A stretch of DNA of 64,000 nt from positions 2,618,501 through 2,682,500 of the forward strand of contig NZ_CP108455.1 of assembly GCF_036241575.1 (NCBI RefSeq). Direction: 5' to 3'. The DNA comes from Streptomyces sp. NBC_01267. GTDB taxonomy: Bacteria; Actinomycetota; Actinomycetes; Streptomycetales; Streptomycetaceae. Positions 24,435-61,810 of the stretch are shown here, one piece after another. The number at the start of each line of letters is the position of its first letter. Position 1 is the stretch's first letter. The translations under genes were made by a program, and so were the position numbers. Below the pieces are notes generated by a model that had not been told where the DNA came from, ran no database searches, and saw nothing but the letters and a program-made list of their open reading frames with translations.

Positions 24435-25910
24435 CTATCCCGCGTCGGTGGCCGGGGGCAGCGCGTGGCGGCGGATCACGTCGGCGTACCAGTGCGCGCT
24501 CGCCTTGGGGATCCGGCGCTGCGACGCGTAGTCCACGTAGACCGCGCCGAAGCGCTTCGAATACCCGTACCCCCACTCGAAGTTGTCCATCAGGGACCAC
24601 AGGAAGTAGCCCCGGACATCGGCGCCGTCGGCCACGGCCCGCTGCACGGCGGCGAGATGGCCGTGCAGGTAGTCGATCCGCTCGGGGTCCGCGACCCGGC
24701 CCTCGGGGGACACGTAGTCGTCGAAGGCAGCGCCGTTCTCGGTGACCATCAGCGGCAGGCCGGGGTGGTCCCGGGTCACGTCCATGAGCAGGCTGTACAG
24801 CCCGTCGGGGTCGATCGCCCAGTTCATCGCGGTGCGCTTCTTCCCCTCCGCGAGGTGGAAGGCGACGTGCTCGGAGCCGGTCCACGGCGAGTGGTCGCTG
24901 TTGCCGTGGCCGTCGTCGCGGGTGTCACCGGCACCGGAGACGGGCGCGGAAACCAGTGTCGGGGTGTAGTAGTTGACGCCCAGCACGTCGACGGGGCGGG
25001 AGATGGTGGTCAGGTCGCCGTCGTGCACCAGCTCCGACCAGTCGACCAGGCGCGAGGTGTCGGCGATCAGGTCCTCCGGGTAGGCGCCGTTCAGGATCGG
25101 CCCGGTGAAGATCCGGTTGCCGACCCCGTCGATCCGGCGGGCGGCGTCGGCGTCGGCCTCGCTGCCGGTCAGCGGACGGACCTGGTGCAGATTGAGGGTG
25201 ACCGAGACCTGCGCGGCAGCGGGGAGTTGACCGCGCAGGACCTCGACCGCCCGGCCATGGGCGAGGTTGAGATGGTGGGCCGCCCGGAGCGTGGCACCCG
25301 GCTCGGTGCGTCCGGGGGCGTGCACTCCGGAGCCGTAGCCGAGGAAGGCGGAGCACCACGGCTCGTTGAGCGTGGTCCACATGCCGACCCGGTCGCCGAG
25401 GGCTCCGGCCATGATGGCGGCGTAGTCGGTGAACCGGTCCGCGGTGGCGCGGGCGGGCCAGCCACCCGCGTCCTCCAACTCCTGCGGCAGGTCCCAGTGG
25501 TAGAGGGTGGCGACCGGGGCGATGCCCGCTTCGAGCAGTTCGTCGACGAGCCTGCGGTAGAAGTCCAGACCGCGCTCCACGGCCGGGCCGCGGCCGGTGG
25601 GCTGGACCCGCGACCAGGAGACGGAGAAGCGGTAGGCCTTCAGCCCCAGCTGCTTCATCAGGGCCACGTCGCCGCGGTAGCGGTGGTAGTGGTCGGCGGC
25701 GATGTCTCCGGTGTCGCCGTTGCGGACCTTGCCGGGGGTACGGCTGAAGGTGTCCCAGATGGAGGGCGTGCGGCCGTCCTCGGCGGCGGCGCCCTCGACC
25801 TGGTAGGCGGCGGTGGCGGCGCCCCAGACGAACCCGGTGGGGAATCCGGTCGGGGGGGCCGTCGTCTCGGGAGCCTGTTTCGGGGTGGTGTCGGATCGTA
25901 CGGCAGTCAT
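24435..25910 (-). CDS. bglC: GH1 beta-glucosidase BglC
   Basis: The 491-residue family GH1 enzyme hydrolyses imported cellobiose and cellotriose to glucose. Catalytic residues are visible: the acid/base Glu in TTLNEP (about E183) and the nucleophile Glu in VTENGAAF (about E391). The N-terminal [20 protein letters not shown] is diagnostic. There is no signal peptide, so it is cytoplasmic. The ATG at 25910 immediately follows a CebR palindrome that overlaps the only Shine-Dalgarno-like bases; an in-frame start at 26030 would add a proline-rich leader. It lies 242 bases downstream of cebG on the same strand. Confidence 0.92.
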
Positions 25911-25911
25911 G

Positions 25912-25925
25912 CGGGAGCGCTCCCA
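25912..25925. promoter_or_regulatory. CebR operator abutting the bglC start codon
   Basis: TGGGAGCGCTCCCG on the bglC strand matches the CebR palindrome at 13 of 14 positions and ends one base before the bglC ATG. Its GGGAG half is also the likely Shine-Dalgarno sequence, so repressor site and ribosome-binding site coincide. Confidence 0.75.
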
Positions 25926-26152
25926 GAGGTCGGCGAACACGGGCTGTTGAGCAGGGGCTGTACGAGGTGGTTGTACGGAGTGGGCCGGACGGCGTGGTTG
26001 TACGGGGGTGGGGCGGACGGGACAGGGCACGGGGCGGACTCCCCCGCCCGCCCGTACGGCCTGTGGTCAGGCACAGGCCGTACGGGCAGTACCGGGGCCC
26101 GTGCCTGAGGCGGCCGGGTGGAAGCGGGCGGGCCGGGACGGGTGACGGGGTC

Positions 26153-27070
26153 TCACCCCTTCACGGCGCCCGACATGATGCCCCCCACGATCCGCTTGCC
26201 GAAGAACACGAACACCACGAGCAGCGGCAGCGTGCTGATCAGCGCGCCCGCCATCACGATGCTCTGGTCGGGCGTGAAGGAGGCGTTCAGCTGGCCGAGG
26301 GCCACCTGAAGGGTCGGGTTCTGCTGGTTCAGCGCGAGGTAGGGCCAGAAGAAGTCGTTCCACGACTGCACGAAGGTGAGCATCCCGAGCACCATCATCG
26401 CGGGGCGCGCCACCGGCAGCACCACGCTCAGCACGATGCGGAAGTTGTTCGCCCCGTCCAGTTTGGCCGCCTCGACGAGTTCGTACGGCAGCGCCTCCAG
26501 CAGGTACTGCCGCATGAAGAACACCCCGAAGGCGCTCACCAGGGTCGGGAAGATCACCGACTGGAGATTTCCGCCCCAGCCGAGGTCGGACATCATCATG
26601 AACAGCGGGACGACGCTGAGCTGCGGCGGAACGGTCAGCGTGGCGATGACCGCGGTCATCAGCCAGCCGCGCCCCCGGAAGCGCATCTTGGCGAAGGCGT
26701 ATCCGGCGAGGGTGCAGAAGAAGAGCGTCGCCGTGGTGATGCAGGAGGAGACGATGATGCTGTTGACGATCGCCTTGCCGAGGTGGGCCTGGTTCCAGGC
26801 CGCGTCGAGGTTGTGCAGCAGCCGCCCGCCGGGCAGGAACGGTGGCGTGGTGTTCAGTACTTCGTCCTGGGTGTGGGACGCGGCCACCAGGGTCCAGTAC
26901 AGCGGCAGGATCGAACCGATGCCGACGACGATCAGTGCGATGTAGGCGAAGGGGCCACCCTTCATCTGCTGGCCGGCTCGCTCCTTGAACCGGCCGGGTT
27001 TGGGGGGCGTACCGGTCGCGGCCTGCCGGACGCGGAGGTCCGGGGCGTCGGTGGGGCTGGTCATGGTCAT
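26153..27070 (-). CDS. cebG: Cello-oligosaccharide ABC transporter permease CebG
   Basis: The 305-residue MalG-type inner-membrane permease has six predicted membrane segments and the EAA cytoplasmic loop ELVEAAKLDGANNFRIVLSV, which docks on an ATPase. A hydrophilic N-terminal tail of about 35 residues precedes the first segment. ATG codons at 27070 and 27064 are both possible starts. It follows cebF by 15 bases. No ATPase gene is in this operon, as expected, because Streptomyces sugar importers of this type share the ATPase MsiK encoded elsewhere. Confidence 0.87.
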   Translation of the reverse strand: MTMTSPTDAPDLRVRQAATGTPPKPGRFKERAGQQMKGGPFAYIALIVVGIGSILPLYWTLVAASHTQDEVLNTTPPFLPGGRLLHNLDAAWNQAHLGKAIVNSIIVSSCITTATLFFCTLAGYAFAKMRFRGRGWLMTAVIATLTVPPQLSVVPLFMMMSDLGWGGNLQSVIFPTLVSAFGVFFMRQYLLEALPYELVEAAKLDGANNFRIVLSVVLPVARPAMMVLGMLTFVQSWNDFFWPYLALNQQNPTLQVALGQLNASFTPDQSIVMAGALISTLPLLVVFVFFGKRIVGGIMSGAVKG

Positions 27071-27085
27071 GGATATCGCTCCCGG

Positions 27086-28078
27086 TCAGGCCGCGGACTT
27101 GCGGACGAAGCGGCCGATGAGCCAGTTGATCGCGGCGATGAGCAGCAGCAGCACGAGCATCGCCCAGGCCACTGCGGCGGCCGGACCGAGATGTCCCAGG
27201 TTCCAGCCGTAGTTGTAGAGGTAGATACTGAGCGTCTCGTACTGGTTCTCCGTGCCGCCGGTCGCTCCGATGGCGCCGCCCTGCAGCAGCAGCGGCTCGC
27301 CGAACAGCTGCATGGAGCCGATGGTCGAGATGACGATCGTGAAGAGGATCGTCGGCCGCAGGGAGGGGATGGTCACCTTGCGGAACTGCTGCCAGCGTGA
27401 GGCGCCGTCGATGGACGCGGCCTCGTACAGATCGGTCGGTACGGCCTGCATCGCGGCGAGATAGATCAGCGTGTTGTAGCCCGTCCAGCGCCAGATCACG
27501 ATGACGGAGATGGCGATCTTCGAAGTCCAGTGCCCGTTGGCCCAGTTGGTGTGGCCGAGACCGATGAAGTGCAGCAGCCAGTTCAGCACGCCGCCGTCGG
27601 CCCGGAAGACCAGGGCGAAGACGAGAGCGGCGGAGGCGACCGAGGTGGCGTACGGGGTGAGGATGAGCGTCCGGAAGAAGGTACTGGCCCGCAGTTTGTA
27701 GTTCAGCAGATGGGCGAGGCCCAGCGCGACCAGCAGCTGCGGGACGGTCGACATGACGCCGATCAGGAAGGTGTTGCTGACCGCCGTCCAGAATTCGGAG
27801 TCCTGAAGGATCTTCGAGAAGTTGTCCCAGCCGACCCACTGCATCTGGTCCAGGCCGGTCATCTCCACCCGGTGCATGGCGATCCAGCCGGTGTAGACGA
27901 GCGGGTAGAGGCCGAAGGCCCCGAAGACGAGGAAGAAGGGGGCGATGTAGGCGTAGGGCGATGCCTTGTCGTCGAAGCGCCACAGCCGGCTCCGCCACTT
28001 CTGCCGCTGGGCAGACGTCGGTCCGGAGCTGCGGGGAGGTGGGGCGTGCGTGTCCCGGGTGGGTGTCGAGGTGGCCAC
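27086..28078 (-). CDS. cebF: Cello-oligosaccharide ABC transporter permease CebF
   Basis: The 330-residue MalF-type permease has a long hydrophilic N-terminus, six or more membrane segments (AYIAPFFLVFGAFGLYPLVY is the first) and the EAA motif YEAASIDGASRWQQFRKVTI. It forms the transmembrane pore with CebG for cellobiose and cellotriose uptake. I chose the GTG at 28078 because AAGGA (28089-28093) lies ten bases upstream; an ATG at 28177 gives 33 more Pro/Arg-rich residues but has no ribosome-binding site. Confidence 0.87.
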   Translation of the reverse strand: MATSTPTRDTHAPPPRSSGPTSAQRQKWRSRLWRFDDKASPYAYIAPFFLVFGAFGLYPLVYTGWIAMHRVEMTGLDQMQWVGWDNFSKILQDSEFWTAVSNTFLIGVMSTVPQLLVALGLAHLLNYKLRASTFFRTLILTPYATSVASAALVFALVFRADGGVLNWLLHFIGLGHTNWANGHWTSKIAISVIVIWRWTGYNTLIYLAAMQAVPTDLYEAASIDGASRWQQFRKVTIPSLRPTILFTIVISTIGSMQLFGEPLLLQGGAIGATGGTENQYETLSIYLYNYGWNLGHLGPAAAVAWAMLVLLLLIAAINWLIGRFVRKSAA

Positions 28079-28277
28079 AGGCGGGAGTCCTTCCCTGGGG
28101 TGCGCCGGTCCGGCGCGGTGGGCGGACCGGTCCGGCCCGGTGCGTTGCGGTGCGGCGGTGTCGGAACGCTGGTCCATGTGCGGTGCCCGGCCCCGGGGGT
28201 GTCCGGCCTGGTCGGCCGGGCACCCCCGGGAACCGGCGCTGACGCGGGGGCCCGGAGTCCGCCCGCGTCAGCGGTGC

Positions 28278-29603
28278 TCAGCCGACGGCCTTGTCGATCA
28301 CCTTGATCGCGGCGTTCCAGGCATCGGCGGAACTGGTGTGCCGCTGCTCCATGTTGAGGATCTGCTTGGAGAAGTCGTCCTTGATCACGCCGTCCTTCGG
28401 GCCGAGCACGGCCGCCGGGATGGTCGAGGCTTCGTCCGCGTAGATCTTCCCGATCGGCGCGTCGTTGAAGTACGGCAGCTTCGCGTTCTTGACGTCGGGG
28501 AGCTCCCACGCGCCCTTGTTGGACGGGAAGACGCCGATCGCCTTGAACACCGCGGCCTGCTGCTCCGGCGCGGTCAGCCACTTGACGAGCGCGCTGGCCT
28601 CGGCCACGTGCTTACCGCTCTTGGGGATGGCCAGGAACGAGCCGCCCCAGTTGGCCGAGGTCGTGCCGGGCGCGGTGGTGATGTCCCACTTGCCCTTGTT
28701 GGCCGGGCCCGCGTCGGTCGAGATCTGACCGGCCATCCACGCGGGGCAGGCCACGGTCGCGACGGTGCCCTTGCGCAGCGCGGGGACCCAGGTGTCGGGA
28801 TCGAACTGGGCGAGCCCCTGGGAAAGCTTGCCGGTAGCCGCCTGGGAGGCCAGCCCCCAGGCGTCCTTCACGCTGGCGCTGGTCTCGTAGATCGGCTTGC
28901 CGCTCGCGTCGTAGTACTGCTGCTCGTTCGAACTGACCACGGCGTTGAACATCGCGCTCGCGGAGTCCATGAAGTACGTGCCCGCAGGCGCGTGCTTCTT
29001 GTACTCGTCACCGAGCTGGAGGTAGGCCTTCCAGCCGCCGGCGAGCTTCTTGGCGACGTCTTCGCGGTCGGTCGGCAGACCGGCCCGCTGGAACAGGTCC
29101 TTGTTGTAGCAGAGCGACATCGGGCCGATGTCGGTACCCGCGCCGATCACGGCACCGCTGGAGGTGGTGGCCTGCTTCTCCTTCCAGGACACCCAGTCGT
29201 TGACGTCGATCACCTTGCTGAGGTCGACGAACTGGTCCGCCTTGGTGTCGACGACCTCCTTGATCCGGCCGACCTCAAGACCCTGCACATCGCCGAGACC
29301 ACTGCCCGCGTTCAGCTCCTGGAGCAGCTTGGGGTAGTAGACCTCCTCCTGAGCAGTGGTGTTCTCCTTGACCGTGATGTTCGGGTGCAGCTTGTGGTAC
29401 TGGGCGAAGAGACCGGCTTCCTTGTAGCCGAACTGACCGTAGTCGGCGACGGTGAGCGTGATCTTCCCGTTCGCGTCGGAACTCTTGCCGGAGTCCGAGT
29501 CGCTGCTGCAGCCGGCCAGCAACAGGGCCGTGGCCGTCAGGCCCGTGGTGGCTATGACCGCGGCTCTGCGGCGTCGTCCGCCGACGGTGCGGGTGATACG
29601 CAT
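28278..29603 (-). CDS. cebE: Cellobiose/cellotriose-binding lipoprotein CebE
   Basis: The 441-residue extracellular solute-binding protein (family 1) has an Arg-rich n-region and the lipobox LLAGC (Cys32), so the mature protein is lipid-anchored. The body starts KITLTVADYGQFGYKEAGLF and contains the family pattern WGGSFLAIPKSGKHVAEASA. It captures cello-oligosaccharides for CebFG. The ATG at 29603 follows AAGGAG. A perfect CebR operator lies 106 bases upstream, marking the operon promoter. In pathogenic Streptomyces CebE also takes up plant cellotriose as a virulence cue (established for S. scabiei); nothing here shows pathogenicity. Confidence 0.9.
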   Translation of the reverse strand: MRITRTVGGRRRRAAVIATTGLTATALLLAGCSSDSDSGKSSDANGKITLTVADYGQFGYKEAGLFAQYHKLHPNITVKENTTAQEEVYYPKLLQELNAGSGLGDVQGLEVGRIKEVVDTKADQFVDLSKVIDVNDWVSWKEKQATTSSGAVIGAGTDIGPMSLCYNKDLFQRAGLPTDREDVAKKLAGGWKAYLQLGDEYKKHAPAGTYFMDSASAMFNAVVSSNEQQYYDASGKPIYETSASVKDAWGLASQAATGKLSQGLAQFDPDTWVPALRKGTVATVACPAWMAGQISTDAGPANKGKWDITTAPGTTSANWGGSFLAIPKSGKHVAEASALVKWLTAPEQQAAVFKAIGVFPSNKGAWELPDVKNAKLPYFNDAPIGKIYADEASTIPAAVLGPKDGVIKDDFSKQILNMEQRHTSSADAWNAAIKVIDKAVG

Positions 29604-30159
29604 TCCACTACTCCTTGTTCCAGGGGGGGACTGGCGTTCGTAGACCGTGCGAGGCGAGGGGGGAGGTACGGGCAGTGCTGTACGCACGGGAAACGGGCCC
29701 GTGCGGCATGGGAGCGCTCCCATGCGTCGTTGCCGGAAGGTTGCTTCCTCGGAGGGGTGGGTGTCAAGAGTTGAAGACGGTTCCGTTGCCCGAGCGTGTC
29801 CTGCAAGTCACGAGAACGTGTCCGGCGCGGGCCTTGCCATGACGGGAGGGGCACTCGCGCCGCCGCCCGGAGCTGGTGAATTCCCGCAGGCCAAAGGGGT
29901 GATGACGGTTCGCGCACGCGGCCCTCGCCGGGACAGGCGCACCGGACGCCCCTGGATCGTGCAGGCACCCGGTCCCGCGATGCGGGTGGACCGCCCGGCG
30001 CACGTGCGCGTTCTTCCTCCGAACCCGGGGCGTTGCCGTCCCGCCCCGAGGGGTGCCCGCCTCCGGCCCGCGCGACCCCGGACAGGCTTACCCGAACATC
30101 GCCCGCGCGACCCCGGACAGGCCCTACCCGAACACCGCCCGCGCGACCCCGGACAGGCC
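29604..30159. promoter_or_regulatory. cebE promoter region with CebR operator, then non-coding DNA
   Basis: The 556-base gap contains a perfect CebR palindrome TGGGAGCGCTCCCA at 29709-29722 in front of cebE. Bases 29750-30060 show no convincing gene. From 30067 the tandem repeats described separately run into the 3' end of the next gene. Confidence 0.8.
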
Positions 30160-33953: not shown

Positions 33954-34907
33954 ATGGAGAGCATTCGGATGCCGTACACCGCGAACCGCACCCGGCCCCG
34001 CTGGTGGACAGAGATCCTGGTGCTCGCTGTCGTCTACACCGCGTACTCCTCGGGCAGGCTGCTCGCCCGGGGCAACACGGAGGACGCGGTCGAGCACGGG
34101 CTCTCGCTGCTCCGGGCCGAGAAGTTCCTGCACATCAACATCGAACACCCGCTGAACAGGCTGTTCACGCACACCCCGGCGCTGGGGATACCCGCCGACT
34201 TCATCTATGCCTCGCTGCACTACGTGGTGACCCCGGGCATCCTGATCTGGCTCTTCCGGCGCCGTCCCGTGCAGTACCGGGTGGCACGCACCTGGTTGAT
34301 GATCTCCACGCTGCTCGGCCTGATCGGCTTCACGCTGGTACCGACGTGCCCGCCACGGCTGCTCGCGCCGGCCGAGGGCTTCGTCGACACGATGGCCCAG
34401 TACAGCTCGTACGGCTGGTGGGGCAGCGAGGCGAGCGCGCCGCGCGGGCTCGGCGGGATGACCAACCAGTTCGCGGCGATGCCCAGCCTGCATGTGGGGT
34501 GGGCGCTGTGGTGCGGGGTGATGCTGTGGCGTTACGGACGTACGCCGCTGACCCGGACGCTGGCCGTGCTCTATCCGCTGACCATCACCTTCGTGGTGAT
34601 GGGGACGGCGAACCACTACCTGCTCGACGCCCTGGCGGGCGTCGCGGTGATGGGTGTCGGACTGCTGCTCACCCGGCCCGCGGTGCAGCTGACCGACCGA
34701 ATACGGGCGCGGTTCTCCTCCGGCACCTCTGACACTCCTGACGTACCGGCCCCGGTTGTCAGTGGCGGATGCAAGACTTCCGCAGGTGAGCGATTCCCCG
34801 GGCAGCGGACCTCCTCCGCCTCAGCAGCCTCCGCGGCCTCCGGAGCGGCCTCAGCCGGTTCCCCGGCCGAAACCGCGGACGACGGCACTCCGACAGCGGC
34901 TCGCTGA
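33954..34907 (+). CDS. PAP2-family membrane phosphatase (AUR1/inositol-phospho-transferase-like)
   Basis: The 317-residue integral membrane protein has about six membrane segments and the PAP2 phosphatase motifs FAAMPSLHVGWALW and TANHYLLDALAG, with two catalytic histidines and an aspartate. The layout (PAP2_3) resembles the AUR1/inositolphosphotransferase branch, which acts on lipid phosphates or phosphatidylinositol-type head groups at the membrane. The last 50 residues are Ser/Ala-rich and overlap the next gene in another frame, so the true end may be poorly conserved. ATGs at 33954 and 33969 are both plausible starts. Confidence 0.8.
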   Translation: MESIRMPYTANRTRPRWWTEILVLAVVYTAYSSGRLLARGNTEDAVEHGLSLLRAEKFLHINIEHPLNRLFTHTPALGIPADFIYASLHYVVTPGILIWLFRRRPVQYRVARTWLMISTLLGLIGFTLVPTCPPRLLAPAEGFVDTMAQYSSYGWWGSEASAPRGLGGMTNQFAAMPSLHVGWALWCGVMLWRYGRTPLTRTLAVLYPLTITFVVMGTANHYLLDALAGVAVMGVGLLLTRPAVQLTDRIRARFSSGTSDTPDVPAPVVSGGCKTSAGERFPGQRTSSASAASAASGAASAGSPAETADDGTPTAAR

Positions 34908-35976
34908 GCTGCGCGGACCGGCCGTCCCGCCACAGCCACTGGACGCCCGCGCACTGGCGGCCCTCGCCGCCAACCCCGGCTGCGAACGGCGCGCGCTGCT
35001 CGACGGCGCCGGGGTGAACAAGACGGTCCTCGCGAAGGCCCTCGGAGCGCCCTCGGCCTTCGGCCAGTCCCAGTTCGCGTTCATGCGGGGCAATGCCTTC
35101 GAGGCCAAGGTCAAGGCGGACGGCGGGGCCGAGCTGATGCGGCTGCTCGCGGAGCGGATGGGCACCGCCGAGCCGGTGGACGTCACGGTCCCGGACCTTT
35201 CAGCGGCGGGGCCCGAGGGCCGGGCCGCCCGTACCGCACTGGCTCTGCGCGAAGCGACCTCGGCGGCTCCGCACGGGGGCTGGACGCTGCTCGACCACCC
35301 CATGCTGGCGCTGGAGGTGGCGGGCTCCCCCGCCTATCTGGAGCCCGACGCGGTGGTCGTGGACCCGGCGGGCCGCTGGACCGTCATCGAGATCAAGTCC
35401 TTCCCGATGATCGACGCGTCGGCGGACGCGGCGAAGGTGGGCGCGGCGGCGCGCCAGTCCGCGGTGTACGTACTGGCGTTGGAGCGGATCGCGGCCCTGG
35501 TCGAGGGCGCTTCGGTGCACGACCGCGTCCTGCTGGTCTGCCCGAAGGACTTCTCCAACCTGCCGACGGCGTCGGCCGTGGACGTACGCAAGCAGCTCTC
35601 CGTCACCCGTCGCCAGCTGGCCCGGCTGACCCGGATCGAGGACATCGCGGCGGCCCTGCCCGAGGGCACCACCTTCGACCCCGGCCTGCCGCCCGGGGAG
35701 CTGACGGCGGCGGTCGAATCGGTGGACGCGGCGTACGCACCGGAGTGCCTGGCCGCGTGCGAACTGGCCTTCCACTGCCGGGAACGGTCGCGCGCGGCGG
35801 GCGCCGTGGAGTCGCTGGGCCGCGGGGTCCGCGGTGAACTCGGCGGCCTGACGACGGTCGACGCGGTGCTGGCCGCGGCCCGGGGCGAAGCGGGTGACCC
35901 GGCGGACCCGACGGTGGCGGCGCTGCGGAGGGCCGCGGCGCTGCGGGCCGAGGCGCTGGGGGGTGCGGCGTGCTGA
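34786..35976 (+). CDS. PD-(D/E)XK nuclease with Cas4/AddB-like Fe-S cysteines
   Basis: This protein of about 396 residues has a proline-rich N-terminus, then the RecB-like nuclease core: GNAFEAK (about E106), LEPDAVVVD (about D188) and WTVIEIKSF (about E202, K204), followed by a QSAVYVLALE helix. One cysteine lies upstream (NPGCERR, about C66) and three downstream (CLAACELAFHC, C-x3-C-x5-C). This one-plus-three arrangement holds a 4Fe-4S cluster in Cas4, Dna2 and AddB. It is first in a same-strand series with an unknown protein and an SF1B helicase. The start is uncertain (GTG 34786, GTG 34762 or TTG 34756), and it overlaps the PAP2 gene. Confidence 0.8.
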   Translation: MSDSPGSGPPPPQQPPRPPERPQPVPRPKPRTTALRQRLAELRGPAVPPQPLDARALAALAANPGCERRALLDGAGVNKTVLAKALGAPSAFGQSQFAFMRGNAFEAKVKADGGAELMRLLAERMGTAEPVDVTVPDLSAAGPEGRAARTALALREATSAAPHGGWTLLDHPMLALEVAGSPAYLEPDAVVVDPAGRWTVIEIKSFPMIDASADAAKVGAAARQSAVYVLALERIAALVEGASVHDRVLLVCPKDFSNLPTASAVDVRKQLSVTRRQLARLTRIEDIAAALPEGTTFDPGLPPGELTAAVESVDAAYAPECLAACELAFHCRERSRAAGAVESLGRGVRGELGGLTTVDAVLAAARGEAGDPADPTVAALRRAAALRAEALGGAAC

Positions 35977-36033
35977 CGCCGCGTGGGTGCGTGCTGACGC
36001 CGCGTGGGTGCTGCGTGCTGACGCCGCGTGGGT
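35971..36033. repeat. Three 18-base units repeated at the nuclease stop codon
   Basis: TGCTGACGCCGCGTGGGT occurs at 35971-35988, 35992-36009 and 36016-36033, with offsets of 21 and 24 bases. The first copy contains the TGA stop of the nuclease gene; because the offsets are multiples of three, the TGA recurs twice more in the same frame. Confidence 0.9.
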
Positions 36034-36129
36034 CCGGTCCTGCTGTTCCCGGGGCGCCGTCCTGTGCGGGCGGGCGGCCGGGTGACGCCGGGAGGACCCG
36101 CGCCGCCGAGCCGCCCCGCGCCACTGATG

Positions 36130-36187
36130 AAACGCGCGCCACCGAGGGAACGCGTGCTGTCGAGGCAACGCGCGCCGCCGAGGAGAC
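36130..36187. repeat. Three degenerate 18-base repeats before the next start
   Basis: Three copies of a degenerate 18-base unit (ACGCGYGCYRYCGAGGVR-like) run up to the start at 36191. The last copy provides the GAGGAG ribosome-binding site. The 214-base gap between nuclease and middle gene is therefore largely two tandem arrays. Confidence 0.7.
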
Positions 36188-36190
36188 CCG

Positions 36191-37801
36191 ATGTCCCTGA
36201 TCACCACGCTGGCCCGGCTGGAGGCCGTCCGGGACGGGCGTGCCCGGCCCACCGCCACCGTGCGCCACCGCCATCTCGCCGAGCACCCGCTCGTCCTCGT
36301 ACCGCTCACCACCGCGGGCGAAGCGGGCGCCCCGCTCGGCGCGCTCGTCGGGACCGATCCCGGGGAGCCCCGGCTGCTGATCGTCGCCCAGCCGCGCGAC
36401 CGGGACCTGCGGTTCGCCTTCCTCGCGGAACTGGCCGAGGCCGTCCTGCCGTACATCGAGGCGTACGCCGACGACGTGGAGGCCGCCGAGCGCTCCGAGG
36501 CGGACCCGGAGACCGGCAAGAAGGTCAAGGTCGAGGTCGAGCTGTGCGCCGATGCCCCGCAGCTGATCGTGCCGGGCCGGGCGGGCATCGACTTCGTACG
36601 GCTCCTCGGGCGCTCGATGCGTTTCCGGCGCACCGCCGAGGAGGACCCGGAGGCGCCCTATCCGGCGCCCCCGCGCGTCCCCCTGCTGGGCCGCTGGATG
36701 ACGCATTTCGGTGAGCGTGCCCGGGTGCCCGGGTCGTCGCTGCTGCTCGCCACGACGGATCTGCTCAACCGCCACTGGGCCACCGGGCAGAGCAGTCTGG
36801 AGGACCAGCACCTGGGCGCGCTGCTCGCCTGGATCGACCCGGGGGCGGGCGAGTCGGGCGCGGAGGCCGCGCTCCGGGCGGAGCTGGAGCGGGACCGGGA
36901 GGGCCAGTTGGTCTGCCCGCCCGCCGGACCGGCCACCGACCCGGCGTTCGACAACGGGCTGCTGGCTCCTGCCGTCGAGCGGTACGACCGGGCCCGTGCG
37001 GCGCTGGCCGCGGCCGAGGACGGACCGGCCGCCGACGACCGGCTCGGTGAACTGACGGCGGCCGAGCGGGAGATCCGCCGGCTGCTGGCCGGACAGCTGC
37101 GCCCCACCTGGGACGCCGTGTGGCGCGGCCTCGGGCTGCTGCGGGAGCTGCCGGAAGGGACCAGGGCGGACGGGCGGTGGACCCGCGACCGCTGGTCGTT
37201 CACCGGCCACCGCGACCGGGTGCGGGCCGGGGAACCCCCACAGCCGCGGCACGACGACGCGGTGACCGCCGCGCAGAAGCTGGCCTCGCGGGAGGCCGCG
37301 CAGACCCAGCTCGACGCCCAGGAGGCGCTGGACGATCCGCTGGTGATGGCGGGGCGGCGGCTCGCGGGCGAGGCGTTCGCCGGTGAGGTGACGGAGGTGG
37401 TGATGGCCTGGAGCGAGTCGAAGCGCCCGAGCCCGCGCCCCTTGATCACGTTCCGCACGGAGGACACCCCCCATCTCGACGGGCGGGCCAAGGTCCACCG
37501 CACGCAGCCGGGCGACCCGCCGAAGACGCAGAGCGCCGAGTTCGTACGGTACGAGGAGGACGGCTCCCTGGTGCTGCGGCTGGTCAACGGCATGGGCCGC
37601 GCCAAGGATCCGGCGCCGGGGACGGTGCCGGAGAAGGGCGACCGGCTGTGCTGGACCCTGTTCGAGCACAGTTCGCGTGGCGGGCCCGAACTGCCCGCCC
37701 AGGAGGACACCCCGTGGACCCACGGCGGGCCACCGGGCGCCACCGGCGCGTCCGAAGGCTCGACGATCCCCGACCCCGTCACCCCGGAGGACCTGCTGTG
37801 A
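36191..37801 (+). CDS. Unknown 536-residue protein between nuclease and helicase
   Basis: I do not recognise a family. The protein has an alpha/beta N-terminal half (HPLVLVPLTTAGEAGAPLGA, then RLLIVAQPRDRDLRFAFLAE), a long charged helical middle (about residues 250-400; ELTAAEREIRRLLAGQLRPT), and a beta-rich C-terminal stretch (about 400-500; FAGEVTEVVMAWSESKRPSP, ITFRTEDTP, LVLRLVNGMG) ending in a Pro/Gly/Glu tail. The beta-rich part could correspond to the 1B barrel that SF1B helicases normally carry, supplied in trans. It starts at an ATG behind GAGGAG. Its stop overlaps the helicase GTG (GTGA), so the two are translationally coupled and probably act together. Confidence 0.8.
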   Translation: MSLITTLARLEAVRDGRARPTATVRHRHLAEHPLVLVPLTTAGEAGAPLGALVGTDPGEPRLLIVAQPRDRDLRFAFLAELAEAVLPYIEAYADDVEAAERSEADPETGKKVKVEVELCADAPQLIVPGRAGIDFVRLLGRSMRFRRTAEEDPEAPYPAPPRVPLLGRWMTHFGERARVPGSSLLLATTDLLNRHWATGQSSLEDQHLGALLAWIDPGAGESGAEAALRAELERDREGQLVCPPAGPATDPAFDNGLLAPAVERYDRARAALAAAEDGPAADDRLGELTAAEREIRRLLAGQLRPTWDAVWRGLGLLRELPEGTRADGRWTRDRWSFTGHRDRVRAGEPPQPRHDDAVTAAQKLASREAAQTQLDAQEALDDPLVMAGRRLAGEAFAGEVTEVVMAWSESKRPSPRPLITFRTEDTPHLDGRAKVHRTQPGDPPKTQSAEFVRYEEDGSLVLRLVNGMGRAKDPAPGTVPEKGDRLCWTLFEHSSRGGPELPAQEDTPWTHGGPPGATGASEGSTIPDPVTPEDLL

Positions 37802-39228
37802 CGACCTTCGACCCCACCACGGCGGCCGGTCCTGCTCCGGCCGGTCCTGCGGTGGCCCGTGCTGCGGTGGCCGATCCGTCGCGTGCCGGCCGTCCCACGG
37901 CGGCGTTCGATCCCGGCGCCGAGGCGGCCCGCGCGACAGCGGCCGTGCTGGACGACACGCTGCACGGCACGGCCCGCGGTGTGGTCGTCGACTCCCCGCC
38001 GGGCGCGGGCAAGTCGACGCTGGTGGTGCGTGCGGCGCGCGAACTGGCCGCGGCGGGGCGGCCCCTGATGGTGGTCGCCCAGACCAACGCCCAGGTCGAC
38101 GACCTGGTGGTCCGGCTCGCCGGGAAGGACCCCGACCTGCCGGTCGGCCGACTGCACAGCAGCGACCCCGACCCGTACGACAAAGCACTCGACGACCTGG
38201 CGAACGTCCGCACCTCGGCCAAGGCGGCCGACCTCGCGGGACTGGACGTGGTGATCTCGACGGCCGCGAAGTGGGCGCACGTCAAAGGCGTCGAGCCGTG
38301 GCGGCACGCGATCGTCGACGAGGCGTACCAGATGCGGTCGGACGCGCTGCTGGCCGTGGCGGGGCTCTTCGAACGGGCGCTGTTCGTGGGCGATCCCGGC
38401 CAGCTCGACCCGTTCAGCGTGGTCGGCGCCGAGCAGTGGGCGGGACTGACGTACGACCCGTCGTCCAGCGCGGTCTCCACGCTCCTGGCCCACAACCCGG
38501 AGCTGCCGCAGCACCGGCTGCCGGTCTCCTGGCGGCTGCCCGCCTCGGCGGCGCCGCTGGTCTCGGACGCGTTCTATCCGTACACGCCCTTCCGTAGCGG
38601 TACGGACCACGGCGACCGGCGGCTGACGTTCGGGGTCGCCTCCGACGGATCGGGCCCGGACCGGGTGCTCGACGAGGCGGCCGAGTCGGGCTGGGGCCTG
38701 CTCGAACTGCCCGCCCGCCACACACCGCGCACGGACCCGGAGGCGGTACGGGCGGTGGCACTGGTGGTCCGCAGGCTGCTGGACCGTGGCGGCGCCGCGG
38801 TGAGTGAGCAGTCGCCGGATCCGGTACCGCTGACCGCGGACCGGATCGCGGTCGGCACCGCCCACCGCGACCAGGCGGCGGCAGTCCGGGCGGCGCTCGC
38901 GGAACTGGGCATCACCGAGGTCGCGGTCGACACGGCGAACCGTCTCCAGGGCCGGGAGTTCGACGTCACGGTGGTTCTGCACCCGCTGTCGGGGCGCCCG
39001 GACGCGACGGCGTTCCACCTGGAGACGGGCCGCCTGTGCGTCCTGACCTCCCGGCACCGGCACGCGTGCATCGTGGTGTGCCGGGAGGGCGTGGCTCAAC
39101 TGCTCGACGAGCACCCCTCGACGGAGCCGGTCCAGCTGGGGGTCACGGTCAAGTTCCCGGACGGCTGGGAGGCGAATCACGCGGTGCTGGCACACCTGGC
39201 GGAGCACCGGGTGCGGTACCGGCCGTAG
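37798..39228 (+). CDS. SF1B (Upf1/Dna2-like) helicase/ATPase
   Basis: The 476-residue P-loop ATPase carries helicase motifs in order: I, VVDSPPGAGKSTLVVRAARE; Ia, VVAQTNAQVDDLV; II, AIVDEAYQM; III, LFVGDPGQLDPF; IV region, LPVSWRLPASAAPLV; V, VDTANRLQGREFDVTVV; VI, LCVLTSRHRHACIVV. This matches the Upf1/Dna2/SMUBP-2 branch of SF1. It is shorter than those enzymes and lacks an obvious 1B barrel. The GTG start overlaps the upstream stop, with CGGAGG at 37785. With the Fe-S nuclease two genes upstream, the set resembles a Dna2 divided over separate polypeptides, suggesting DNA end processing or defence. Confidence 0.85.
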   Translation: MTTFDPTTAAGPAPAGPAVARAAVADPSRAGRPTAAFDPGAEAARATAAVLDDTLHGTARGVVVDSPPGAGKSTLVVRAARELAAAGRPLMVVAQTNAQVDDLVVRLAGKDPDLPVGRLHSSDPDPYDKALDDLANVRTSAKAADLAGLDVVISTAAKWAHVKGVEPWRHAIVDEAYQMRSDALLAVAGLFERALFVGDPGQLDPFSVVGAEQWAGLTYDPSSSAVSTLLAHNPELPQHRLPVSWRLPASAAPLVSDAFYPYTPFRSGTDHGDRRLTFGVASDGSGPDRVLDEAAESGWGLLELPARHTPRTDPEAVRAVALVVRRLLDRGGAAVSEQSPDPVPLTADRIAVGTAHRDQAAAVRAALAELGITEVAVDTANRLQGREFDVTVVLHPLSGRPDATAFHLETGRLCVLTSRHRHACIVVCREGVAQLLDEHPSTEPVQLGVTVKFPDGWEANHAVLAHLAEHRVRYRP

Positions 39229-41853: not shown

Positions 41854-42555
41854 ATGAGCGCATGGCAGCGAAACGACAGCAGCGTGGGAATCCTCTCGAA
41901 CACGGGCGCGAACACAGGCGCGAGCACGGGCGGGGTCCGGGGGTCCGGGGGCCGTTCCCCCGCGGAGTCCTGCCGCGTCCCGCACGACGCGGCAGGACAG
42001 CACGCCACCGCGGTCACCGCCGCCGGAGCGGGCTGGCTCGCCTCGGCGGCGGCGTACCCGCGCACCGCGCTCTCGCTCTGGGAGTCCCGGCCCACCGCCC
42101 CCATCGTGCTGGGCTGCGGCTCGGTCTTCGACGTGGTCAACGTTCCCGCGATCTTCGGCCGCCGGATGCTGGACACCCTGTGGTCGGAGGGCCCCGGGTC
42201 CGGCCCCGTCGCGAGCCATCGCGGCCGGATGCTGCTCTTCACCGCACCGGGCACGGCCCAGCGGCTACCGTCCCTGCTGGAGTGGGAGGAATGGGGCGAA
42301 GCGGTCCCGCCACTGCTCTGTCACGGCGCCGGCGACGCGGTGACCGTACCGCCGCTGACCTCGTCCGTTCGCCGCTCGGGGCCGCGCTGGCTGGTGGCCC
42401 CCGACACCCGGCAGCCCTGGCTCCCGGGACCCGAGGTGGTGCTCTGGGCCTGTGTCCGCGCGGCGCGCGACAAGCCCTCCCCCTCGGTGGGCTTATCGAT
42501 TTTTCCCCGCACCGATCCGGGTGCTAAGGTCTACGACGTCAGCAAGCGCCGCTAG
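41854..42555 (+). CDS. PrimPol-like small protein running into tRNA-Lys
   Basis: The 233-residue product has a Gly/Thr-rich start (GILSNTGANTGASTGG), then WESRPTAPIVLGCGSVFDVV, RMLLFTAPGTAQRLPSLLEW, AVTVPPL, RWLVAPDTRQPWLPGPEVVL and ACVRAARDK. This is the pattern of short Streptomyces proteins annotated as bifunctional DNA primase/polymerase-like; the active-site acids are not evident. The reading frame continues through an AT-rich stretch with an in-frame TTA codon (42493-42495) and ends at TAG 42553-42555, inside the tRNA-Lys gene. The last 25 codons may therefore be tRNA promoter sequence rather than selected coding DNA. Confidence 0.6.
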   Translation: MSAWQRNDSSVGILSNTGANTGASTGGVRGSGGRSPAESCRVPHDAAGQHATAVTAAGAGWLASAAAYPRTALSLWESRPTAPIVLGCGSVFDVVNVPAIFGRRMLDTLWSEGPGSGPVASHRGRMLLFTAPGTAQRLPSLLEWEEWGEAVPPLLCHGAGDAVTVPPLTSSVRRSGPRWLVAPDTRQPWLPGPEVVLWACVRAARDKPSPSVGLSIFPRTDPGAKVYDVSKRR

Positions 42556-42619
42556 CTCAGTTGGTTAGAGCAGCTGACTCTTAATCAGCGGGTCCGGGGT
42601 TCGAGTCCCTGGCGGCGCA
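42546..42619 (+). tRNA. tRNA-Lys (CTT), copy 1
   Basis: 74-base cloverleaf: acceptor GCGCCGC with GCGGCGC, anticodon loop CTCTTAA with CTT, T-arm GGGGTTCGAGTCCCT. Identical in sequence to copies at 56288 and 61729. CCA is not encoded. Confidence 0.96.
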
Positions 42620-42628
42620 CAGACGGGA

Positions 42629-44053: not shown

Positions 44054-44265
44054 TAGAGGAAAGGGCCCGGACCACAGCCGCGCAGAAACGATCACCTTGA
44101 GCACCGGAGTGACCACGGCGCCCCAACAAGGCTGGAACGGTCCTTGCTTCAACCTCTATGATCGGCACACTTTCCCCTGCGGACCACGCCTCCGGCGTTT
44201 CTCCACCGTCCGGCCGACGACCCAGACCTCACCTGTTCAAGACGACTGCACTGCGGGAGCCAGCC

Positions 44266-46074
44266 GTGAGCGGAACCCCTGAAGGGCCGGGTCCGGTGCC
44301 CGCCCCCGTCCGGCCGCCGGTCACAGAGCGTCAGGCCGTCGGCCGGACCGCAGCCGAACTGAGCGACTACCGCGCCGCCTTCAACACCGCCCGGCTCGGC
44401 ATGGCCGTCGTCGACAGCGAAGGCCTGGTCGTCACCGCCAACGACGCCCTCGGCGGACTGCTCGGCGCCGAGCCCGCAGGGCTGAACCGGCAGACCGCGG
44501 CCGACCTGGTGGACCTGGCCACGGACGCCCGGACCTGGCACGCGTACCGCGAAGTGCTCCGGGGCCGCCGCTCCAGCTTCCGCTGCACCCGCAGGCTCAA
44601 GCACGCCGACGGTCACTCGCTCTGGGCCGAGGTCAGCGTCGCGCCGGTCCCCGACAGCTCCCAGGTGCTGCTCTCGGTCGCCGACGTCAGCGACCGGCGC
44701 GAACTCCAGGCGAAACTGCGCCACCTCCAGATGCACGACCCGGTGACCCGGCTGCCGAACCGGGCGCTGTTCTTCGAACGGCTGTCCGCGGCGCTCGACC
44801 TCTCCGCGTACGGGCACGGGAGCACCGCCCGGATCGGGCTCTGCTATCTGGACCTGGACGGTTTCAAGGCGGTCAACGACACCCTCGGCCACCGCTTCGG
44901 CGACCGGCTGCTCGCCGTCGTCGCCTCCCGGCTGACGCACTGCGCCGACCAGCCCGGCTACGGGCGCAGCGGCGGCCATCTGGTGGCCCGGCTCGGCGGT
45001 GACGAGTTCGCCCTGCTCGTCGAGGACTCCTCCGGTACGGAACACCTCGCCGACCTCGCGGGGTCGGTGCTGGCCGCGCTCCAGGAGCCGTTCGACCTGG
45101 GCGGTCAGCGGCTCTCGGTGTCCGCGTCGATCGGAGTGGTGGAGCGGCCGGCGGCGGGCACCAGCGCCACCGGGCTGATGCAGGACGCCGACACCACGCT
45201 GTACTGGGCGAAGGCGGACGGCAAGGCCCGCTGGACGCTGTTCGACCCGGAGCGCAACGCGCACCGGATGACCCGCCAGGCGCTCTCGTCGAAACTGCGG
45301 CCCGCTGTCGAGGGCGGCGAGTTCGTGCTGGAGTACCAGCCGCTGGTGGATCTGGCGGACGGCGCGCTCAAGGGCGTGGAGGCGCTGGTCCGCTGGGACC
45401 ATCCGCAGTTCGGGCGGCTGACGCCCAACCGGTTCATCGGGCTGGCGGAGGAGGACGGCTCGATCGTCCAGCTCGGCGGGTGGGTGCTGCGTACGGCCTG
45501 CCGGCAGGCCAGACAGTGGCAGCTCGACCACCCGGGCGCGCCCCCGCTGTTCGTGAGCGTCAATGTCGCCGTGCGGCAGGTGTGGGACTCCGACCTGGTC
45601 GCCGATGTCGCCGGGGTGCTCGCCGAGACGGGCCTCGCGCCGGAGCTGCTCCAGCTGGAGCTCACCGAGTCGGCGGTGATGGGGTCGGCGGGCCGCCCGT
45701 TGCAGGCGCTCCAGGACCTCAGCGACATGGGTGTGCAGATCGCGATCGACGACTTCGGCACCGGCTACTCGAACCTGGCGTATCTGAGCCGGCTGCCGGT
45801 GTCGGCACTGAAGCTGGACGGGTCCTTCGTCCGCGGGTTCCGCTACGACCAGGGCACCCACCCGAACCCGGCCGACGAGATGATCGTCGAGGCCCTGGTC
45901 CAGCTCGCGCACCGGCTGGGGCTCACGGTCACCGCGGAATGCGTGGAGACGGTGGGCCAGGCGACACGGCTGCGCCGGATCGGGTGCGACACCGGGCAGG
46001 GCTATCTGTACTCGCGGGCGGTGGCGCCGGAGCACATCGGGGCGATGCTCGAAGGCGTACCGCAGCGGGGCTGA
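44266..46074 (+). CDS. cdgA: PAS-GGDEF-EAL cyclic-di-GMP enzyme (CdgA-like)
   Basis: The 602-residue cytoplasmic protein has a PAS domain (about residues 35-145), a diguanylate cyclase domain with an intact GGDEF (244-248 in ARLGGDEFALL) and a phosphodiesterase domain with an intact EAL (372-374 in VEALVRWDHP), plus IDDFGTGYSNLAYL and ECVETVGQA. There is no RxxD inhibitory site before GGDEF. No membrane segment is seen. In S. coelicolor CdgA (SCO2817, from memory) has this architecture in the same chromosomal neighbourhood and controls development through BldD. The GTG at 44266 follows GGGAG; an ATG at 44158 adds 36 residues. Both domains look catalytically competent; which activity dominates cannot be read. 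Confidence 0.87.
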   Translation: MSGTPEGPGPVPAPVRPPVTERQAVGRTAAELSDYRAAFNTARLGMAVVDSEGLVVTANDALGGLLGAEPAGLNRQTAADLVDLATDARTWHAYREVLRGRRSSFRCTRRLKHADGHSLWAEVSVAPVPDSSQVLLSVADVSDRRELQAKLRHLQMHDPVTRLPNRALFFERLSAALDLSAYGHGSTARIGLCYLDLDGFKAVNDTLGHRFGDRLLAVVASRLTHCADQPGYGRSGGHLVARLGGDEFALLVEDSSGTEHLADLAGSVLAALQEPFDLGGQRLSVSASIGVVERPAAGTSATGLMQDADTTLYWAKADGKARWTLFDPERNAHRMTRQALSSKLRPAVEGGEFVLEYQPLVDLADGALKGVEALVRWDHPQFGRLTPNRFIGLAEEDGSIVQLGGWVLRTACRQARQWQLDHPGAPPLFVSVNVAVRQVWDSDLVADVAGVLAETGLAPELLQLELTESAVMGSAGRPLQALQDLSDMGVQIAIDDFGTGYSNLAYLSRLPVSALKLDGSFVRGFRYDQGTHPNPADEMIVEALVQLAHRLGLTVTAECVETVGQATRLRRIGCDTGQGYLYSRAVAPEHIGAMLEGVPQRG

Positions 46075-56287: not shown

Positions 56288-56361
56288 GCGCCGCTAGCTC
56301 AGTTGGTTAGAGCAGCTGACTCTTAATCAGCGGGTCCGGGGTTCGAGTCCCTGGCGGCGCA
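56288..56361 (+). tRNA. tRNA-Lys (CTT), copy 2
   Basis: Identical to the copies at 42546 and 61729; anticodon loop CTCTTAA. The bases immediately before (GGCAA or AGCAA) and about 40 bases after are also nearly the same as in copy 1. Confidence 0.96.
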
Positions 56362-56370
56362 CAGACGGAA

Positions 56371-61728: not shown

Positions 61729-61802
61729 GCGCCGCTAGCTCAGTTGGTTAGAGCAGCTGACTCTTAATCAGCGGGTCCGGGGTTCGAGTCCCTGGCGGCG
61801 CA
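61729..61802 (+). tRNA. tRNA-Lys (CTT), copy 3
   Basis: Same 74-base sequence as copies 1 and 2. A TAAAGT -10-like element lies at 61708. Its terminator is unrelated to that of the other two. Confidence 0.96.
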
Positions 61803-61810
61803 CGCGATAT

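Follow-up and report, generated by a model that had tools for sequence, protein, structure and literature searches.

What would a predicted nuclease, a protein of no known family and a predicted helicase do together in Streptomyces sp. NBC_01267, where their genes stand side by side? These genes lie in the stretch of 64,000 nucleotides analysed here (the window; contig NZ_CP108455.1, positions 2,618,501 to 2,682,500) and are called NUC, MID and HEL.

34786 to 35976, plus strand: NUC, 396 amino acids, GTG start assumed, with TTG at 34756 as an alternative start
36191 to 37801, plus strand: MID, 536 amino acids, ATG start, no known family
37798 to 39228, plus strand: HEL, 476 amino acids, GTG start, Upf1/Dna2-like superfamily 1B (SF1B) helicase core (domains 1A and 2A)

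An initial annotation of the window had placed the three genes on the same strand with the last two overlapping as GTGA, which can be read directly from the sequence. The trio exists in two forms, a resident form, to which the window copy belongs, and a rarer accessory form with a fourth gene, G4. Since some of its relatives lie next to known anti-plasmid and anti-phage genes, we take the trio for a probable component, not yet described, of DNA defence or the processing of DNA ends in bacteria. The explanation that we prefer, with a little more than even confidence, is that the trio would be a split DNA-end-processing helicase-nuclease that was drawn into immunity more than once, its accessory form serving as an immune module.

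NUC carries the active-site residues of RecB/Cas4/AddB-type PD-(D/E)XK nucleases, namely D188, E202-x-K204 and the QxxxY motif (Q224-x3-Y228), together with a 1+3 set of cysteines, C66 and C321-x3-C325-x5-C331. All four cysteines are invariant across 25 divergent relatives with a mean column identity of 45%. In a larger alignment C321, C325 and C331 are kept in 141 of 141 rows and C66 in all 133 rows that cover it, the other eight starting further downstream owing to gene calls; the rows are not independent, and three loci were entered twice (L010 = L023, L043 = L151, L044 = L160; L numbers denote loci and G numbers genomes). D188, E202, K204, Q224 and Y228 are kept in 131/131 rows outside the loci linked to pPIWI-RE genes, the window included. 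The nuclease type and the cysteine set named in the initial annotation are borne out, and the cysteines prove to be conserved; this RecB/Cas4/AddB-type nuclease is predicted to be stabilised by an iron-sulfur (Fe-S) cluster. Pfam PDDEXK_1 matches 8 of the 25 divergent relatives at E <= 0.1 (best E 0.0021), and no PADLOC family matches NUC at E <= 1. In the PDB the NUC profile also hit engineered helical proteins, but these hits cover only the alanine-rich N-terminus or short stretches and were discarded as artefacts.

The Upf1/Dna2-type helicase was also recognised correctly. HEL passes the Pfam cut-off of 27 for AAA_11, at 42.5 bits, and for AAA_12, at 32.4 bits, and its best sequence matches in the PDB are SMUBP-2 and Dna2 (E 5e-8 to 6e-8). 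Its motifs are intact, with a Walker A motif (PPGAGKST), DEAYQ, GDPGQLDP and a C-terminal arginine motif. K72, D174, E175, D199, Q202, R246, Q384, R419 and R421 are kept in 117/117 HEL rows while R386 varies, and mean column identity is 60% in the divergent relatives (23 rows). PADLOC gave weak matches only, the best being MkoC at 28.7 bits, and none of its systems, Gabija included, matches HEL convincingly. The part ahead of the Walker A region is short, about 63 residues as against about 190 in single-chain Dna2-like proteins, so the HEL chain lacks the 1B barrel and stalk.

Could MID supply what HEL lacks? The 536-residue protein still belongs to no named family, as it has no Pfam match above the cut-off, no NCBIfam or PADLOC match at E <= 1 and a best PDB match of only E 0.57. 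Mean column identity among its divergent relatives is 53% (51 rows). The C-terminal part (about residues 357-511) is colinear with the stalk/1B region of single-chain Dna2-like helicases, at a non-significant level. When MID and HEL were joined in one profile, the stretch that begins at MID residue 357 and runs through the whole of HEL aligned with 70 Dna2-like proteins at a probability of 99.8, a score driven by HEL. Compared alone with the Dna2-like proteins, the C-terminal part scored 16.8; the maximum of 60 column shuffles was 16.4, and an unrelated piece of NUC reached 17.1. MID may perhaps carry the helicase's missing accessory domain, the 1B barrel, as the initial annotation had proposed.

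Do the three genes belong together elsewhere? In the window's genome and 60 relatives (61 genomes), MID was found in 44, NUC in 43 and an orthologue of HEL (>= 476 bits) in 43, any HEL match at E <= 0.001 being present in 48. The 17 genomes without MID gave no NUC at E <= 0.001 and a best HEL-like score of 29.8 bits. In G010, the only genome with MID and no NUC, undetermined bases (N) occupy the place of NUC, and the only one with MID and no HEL (G001) is an assembly 79% complete in which MID itself is partial. The order NUC-MID-HEL recurs across many genera in the loci examined, so the co-occurrence survey that the initial annotation had called for finds the trio kept together and its order mostly kept.

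The spacing varies. NUC and MID are 214 nt apart in the window and overlap by 1-13 nt in 75/117 loci of relatives, and MID and HEL overlap in 35/93 loci. The assumed start of NUC at 34786 falls within the upstream PAP2 gene (33954-34907). A gene is inserted between MID and HEL in a few loci (L074-L076, L121); in L075 and L076 it encodes a DUF262-like protein (PADLOC HEC-05, 118 bits in L075). No NUC-HEL fusion was seen among the loci whose gene order was compared. Two other candidate fusions were rejected: in L025 the open frame spanning MID and HEL results from a stretch of N, and a stop codon separates HEL from SbcD in L089.

About 27 Micromonospora loci have NUC and MID without HEL in the fetched flanks. 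A position of HEL apart from NUC-MID speaks for three separate enzymes that do no more than share an operon, with NUC acting alone and MID unrelated to the helicase, as does the lack of significant similarity of MID to any helicase part. We consider this explanation improbable. HEL is matched elsewhere in 10/10 of the searched Micromonospora genomes whose NUC-MID locus lacks it (about 36 kb away in G261, split over two contigs in G460 and with one stop codon in G458), and no searched genome has any of the three without the other two, gapped assemblies excepted. Also, the cysteines of NUC survive the loss of its catalytic residues, as described below.

The accessory form was recognised by clustering neighbouring proteins, which revealed G4, a family of about 270 residues encoded directly upstream of NUC. 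G4 has a coiled-coil-like start and a conserved middle with L-x-S-L-R-R-D-E-E-R-S-F and R-P-Y-Y-L-C. Its comparison with Pfam and PDB profiles gave nothing convincing, and our guess is a winged-helix or adaptor protein. By translated search, G4 is present in 77/125 examined loci. It occurs in 24/295 genomes of the window's genus (one being a weak partial match) and in 22/394 of the class, and is absent from the window's genome. We analysed 24 Streptomyces G4 loci, omitting G637, the second copies of G475 and G549, and two genomes with weak matches, G010 and G930. SbcD is encoded nearby in 14 of the 24 (in L021 only as a 171-residue piece) and a pPIWI-RE island with an extra nuclease in nine; L165 has neither. 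SbcD and pPIWI-RE were found in 0/20 random control regions of the same or related genomes; the controls span 13 kb, the loci span 14-19 kb and share ancestry, which makes the Fisher value of 3.4e-5 no more than indicative. L165 (G675) is the most divergent accessory copy of its set, with MID at about 34%.

SbcC/SbcD are read away from G4-NUC-MID-HEL in the Streptomyces accessory loci, whereas in Amycolatopsis and Kibdelosporangium they come after HEL and share its strand, which indicates either two or more origins of the linkage or a rearrangement. Eight loci have Wadjet genes after HEL. On two plasmids (L146, L147) SbcC-SbcD, G4-NUC-MID-HEL and JetA-D form one cluster in the RefSeq annotation. 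PADLOC identified JetA2, JetB2 and JetC2 after HEL in L018, and Pfam DUF2397 and DUF2398 mark Wadjet in L152. Proteins of L149 and L167 show 70-83% similarity to the plasmid JetA and JetB, with one gene between HEL and JetA in L167; the similarity is weaker in L019 and L021 (31%, to JetC). In proteins chosen by eye beforehand, PADLOC further found Shango SngB and SngC before G4 in L094, a Cas3g gene after HEL in L090 and an Hhe-like gene near the module in L075. A tally of PADLOC matches among neighbours gave 153 families for 116 proteins from 31 loci and 34 families for 141 control proteins; it excludes L012, L021, L076, L103, L106 and L118 and is crude, since models overlap and kinase-type families lead both lists. 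McrBC beside L114 was a call by eye. PADLOC gave only weak restriction-type matches for one of the two genes and none for the other, and we do not claim it.

The SbcCD-type copies in G475 (L161), G549 (L164), G515 (L148) and G1009 (L167) lie 5-24 kb from the end of a long contig, and G475 and G549 have a mirrored second accessory copy at the opposite end, an arrangement like that of terminal inverted repeats. On long contigs, copies of the pPIWI type sit further inside. Beyond SbcC, L161 (16161-17678), L163 (1395-2987) and L164 (15285-16835) have genes that code for about 500-530 residues and look helix-turn-helix-like at the start. They are transposase- or integrase-like by eye and may mark a mobile unit.

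What becomes of NUC beside a pPIWI-RE island? According to Pfam, these loci encode, beside G4, a protein with pPIWI_RE_X, MID and RNaseH domains and a pPIWI_RE_Z protein, and also a pPIWI_RE_Y plus REase protein and a PDDEXK_1 nuclease; domains were assigned on the proteins of L150 and L159, and other loci were assigned by similarity. In NUC of these loci K204 is replaced by R in 10/10 rows (9 distinct loci), E202 by L in seven rows, D188 by Q in three and Y228 by S in three, while C321, C325 and C331 are kept. It looks as though catalysis has been lost, the Fe-S fold kept and the extra nuclease put in its place. That the cysteines outlast the catalytic residues points to a structural role of NUC in a complex. 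NUC and the 546-residue PDDEXK_1 nuclease are not significantly similar (hhalign probability 0.4%), and C66 and the E-x-K motif align.

The account of pPIWI-RE published in 2013 proposed, in the part accessible to us, that it belongs to an RNA-dependent restriction system with an REase and a DinG helicase and that the islands act on DNA-RNA hybrids; NUC, MID and HEL go unmentioned in that part (PMC3702460). Such neighbours would be in line with an RNA-directed system in which HEL is a Upf1-like RNA helicase and NUC acts on RNA or R-loops, and HEL is nearer to Upf1, IGHMBP2 and Dna2 than to UvrD-type helicases. However, the nuclease is of RecB/Cas4 type, and the DNA-acting SbcCD and Wadjet are the more frequent neighbours. 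An RNA-directed role thus seems very improbable to us.

How might the trio work? The comparisons show to which sequence families NUC and HEL belong, that active-site residues and cysteines are conserved, and how the genes co-occur, are ordered and are neighboured; the three-protein complex, the Fe-S cluster, all enzymatic activities, the substrate and the immune role are inferred. HEL would be the ATP-driven motor, NUC the Fe-S-stabilised nuclease that cuts the strand fed to it, and MID the scaffold that joins them. The resident form would probably act on broken or foreign linear DNA in the cell. In the accessory form G4 would be added as a predicted DNA-end or partner adaptor, and next to its partner, be it SbcC/SbcD, Wadjet, Shango or a pPIWI-RE island, the whole would be an immune module: the partner would recognise or cut the invader and the trio would then unwind and degrade the ends. 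The DNA-processing or defence role put forward in the initial annotation finds support in what surrounds some of the other copies, while the three-chain complex stays a prediction.

According to the accessible part of PMC10586767, Wadjet cleaves DNA circles of small size but not linear DNA, and DNA ends are where Rad50 complexes such as SbcCD act. Together in one cluster, Wadjet, SbcCD and a helicase-nuclease would then cover both steps. In such a two-step pathway Wadjet would open circles, and SbcCD with the trio would destroy the linear products and incoming linear DNA, which would make it a bacterial counterpart of MRN-Dna2 resection turned to immunity. This pathway would be part of the boldest reading, which we put forward tentatively: a modular actinobacterial immune machine of four to six genes in which NUC-MID-HEL, as a split Dna2-like motor-nuclease, and G4 would work either with an Mre11-Rad50 pair of their own (SbcCD) or with pPIWI-RE as a guide system supplying a nuclease in place of NUC. 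The catalytically dead NUC would serve there as an Fe-S scaffold, and the window copy would be a domesticated resident form.

Several observations weigh against the trio being a split helicase-nuclease with an immune form. Pfam PDDEXK_1 scores only 13.7 bits on NUC, under its cut-off of 22, so the call of a nuclease fold rests on motifs, and the similarity of the MID sequence to a helicase fold is not significant. The window copy lies outside any defence island, among PAP2, phosphatase, FMN reductase-like and sigma factor-like genes, and the neighbours of the Actinomadura loci are likewise constant, as with chromosomal residents. Neither G4 nor SbcCD adjoins the window copy, and no CRISPR genes occur at the window and no Wadjet, Shango or pPIWI-RE island beside the copy. 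Outside Streptomyces, SbcD is near only 5/50 G4 loci (L017, L018, L020, L089, L094) and pPIWI-RE was found in 0/50 within the fetched flanks. The loci are interrelated, so their counts are not independent. The resident form is present in 37/37 genomes of the window's genus (its own and 36 others), a spread more typical of housekeeping than of defence.

Is the resident trio then a housekeeping enzyme of DNA repair or replication, resecting breaks beside AdnAB or acting at stalled forks, and are the accessory copies duplicates captured by islands and of little informative value? Besides the spread in the genus, the G4-less copies stand in constant chromosomal surroundings, with SbcD or pPIWI-RE in 0/38 loci that have enough flank (ten short or cut loci were excluded). 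A GGDEF-EAL gene occurs downstream of the trio in the window (44158-46074), and another, with 42% identity, directly after NUC-MID in Micromonospora:

L046, 9626 to 11890: GGDEF-EAL gene of Micromonospora
L049, 9692 to 11986: GGDEF-EAL gene of Micromonospora
L053, 10015 to 12279: GGDEF-EAL gene of Micromonospora

The shared gene reflects either an old shared neighbourhood or a functional link, and in the housekeeping explanation it points to a chromosomal locus of long standing. Also counted for that explanation is AdnAB, which the accessible text of PMC5869714 describes as the main helicase-nuclease of Streptomyces. On the other side, most of the phylum is without the trio, since a profile search found MID in 14/396 genomes and 3/236 genera; this is an undercount, because the profile was built from close relatives and the named loci extend to further genera (Micromonospora, Actinomadura, Nocardia, Streptosporangium, Dactylosporangium, Frankia, Amycolatopsis, Kibdelosporangium and others). 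Moreover, additional copies are met again and again beside immune genes, in islands and on plasmids. We regard a pure housekeeping role as rather unlikely, although for the resident copy itself either immunity or repair may be the role.

A midpoint-rooted tree of 66 MID proteins, in which L044 forms one long branch, sorts most copies by genus. Two accessory copies from Streptomyces, L019 and L021, join L017, which comes from another family, inside the clade of that family with support of 100/99; this nesting suggests transfer, as expected of a transferred module. None of 19 candidate stretches in viral contigs proved to be a relative, and phage records gave no match.

Is the trio a known system under another guise? 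Its parts belong to known superfamilies, and MID and G4 are unnamed in the profile libraries used. The trio is undescribed in the literature searched, which covers subscription papers and preprints only to a small extent. Dna2 unites an Fe-S RecB-type nuclease and a Upf1-like helicase, and the core helicase motifs of Dna2 and TIGR00376 (SMUBP-2-like) are common to HEL. Here, in contrast, nuclease and helicase are different proteins, the motor has no N-terminal stalk or 1B region, and MID is an extra family; HEL scores 36.8 bits against TIGR00376, whose cut-off is 348.9. AddAB, AdnAB and RecBCD likewise combine a helicase with a RecB-type nuclease, and AddB has the 1+3 cysteine pattern. Their motors are of UvrD type (superfamily 1A) with the nuclease fused to the helicase chain, whereas the motor here is Upf1-like and on a separate chain. 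Cas4 is a small RecB-type nuclease with a 1+3 cysteine set, from which NUC differs by its C-x3-C-x5-C spacing and the absence of CRISPR genes from the window.

Hachiman is a two-part nuclease-helicase complex in which, according to the partial text of PMC12278908, HamB senses DNA damage and frees the HamA nuclease. The predicted complex of the trio would resemble it, but NUC, MID and HEL have no PADLOC Hachiman match at E <= 1. ApsAB and DdmDE combine a helicase and a PD-(D/E)XK nuclease with an Argonaute-like partner, as the accessible part of PMC11096173 describes them. Compared by description only, the pPIWI-linked copies may similarly work with an Argonaute-like partner, whereas the superfamily 2 helicase and the nuclease of ApsAB and DdmDE are on one chain. 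Wadjet, Shango, pPIWI-RE and SbcCD are neighbours of some accessory copies and consist of different genes from the trio.

Why does the answer matter? Helicase-nucleases decide between repair and destruction of broken or foreign DNA ends, and if a trio found in every searched genome of the genus is still without a name, a fundamental part of Streptomyces DNA biology would be missing. The accessory relatives link a Rad50-Mre11 pair, a circle-cutting SMC nuclease and a PIWI-type protein with a helicase-nuclease. As this series offers NUC both alive and dead, the fate of DNA after the action of Wadjet or pPIWI-RE becomes testable. The question also bears on the ease with which plasmids and phages enter antibiotic producers.

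Two further features of the window concern other genes. A sugar ABC transporter operon at 24435-29723 resembles the Streptomyces cellobiose (ceb) locus. Three identical tRNA-Lys (CTT) genes lie within about 19 kb of one another in the window, at 42546-42620, 56288-56362 and 61729-61803.

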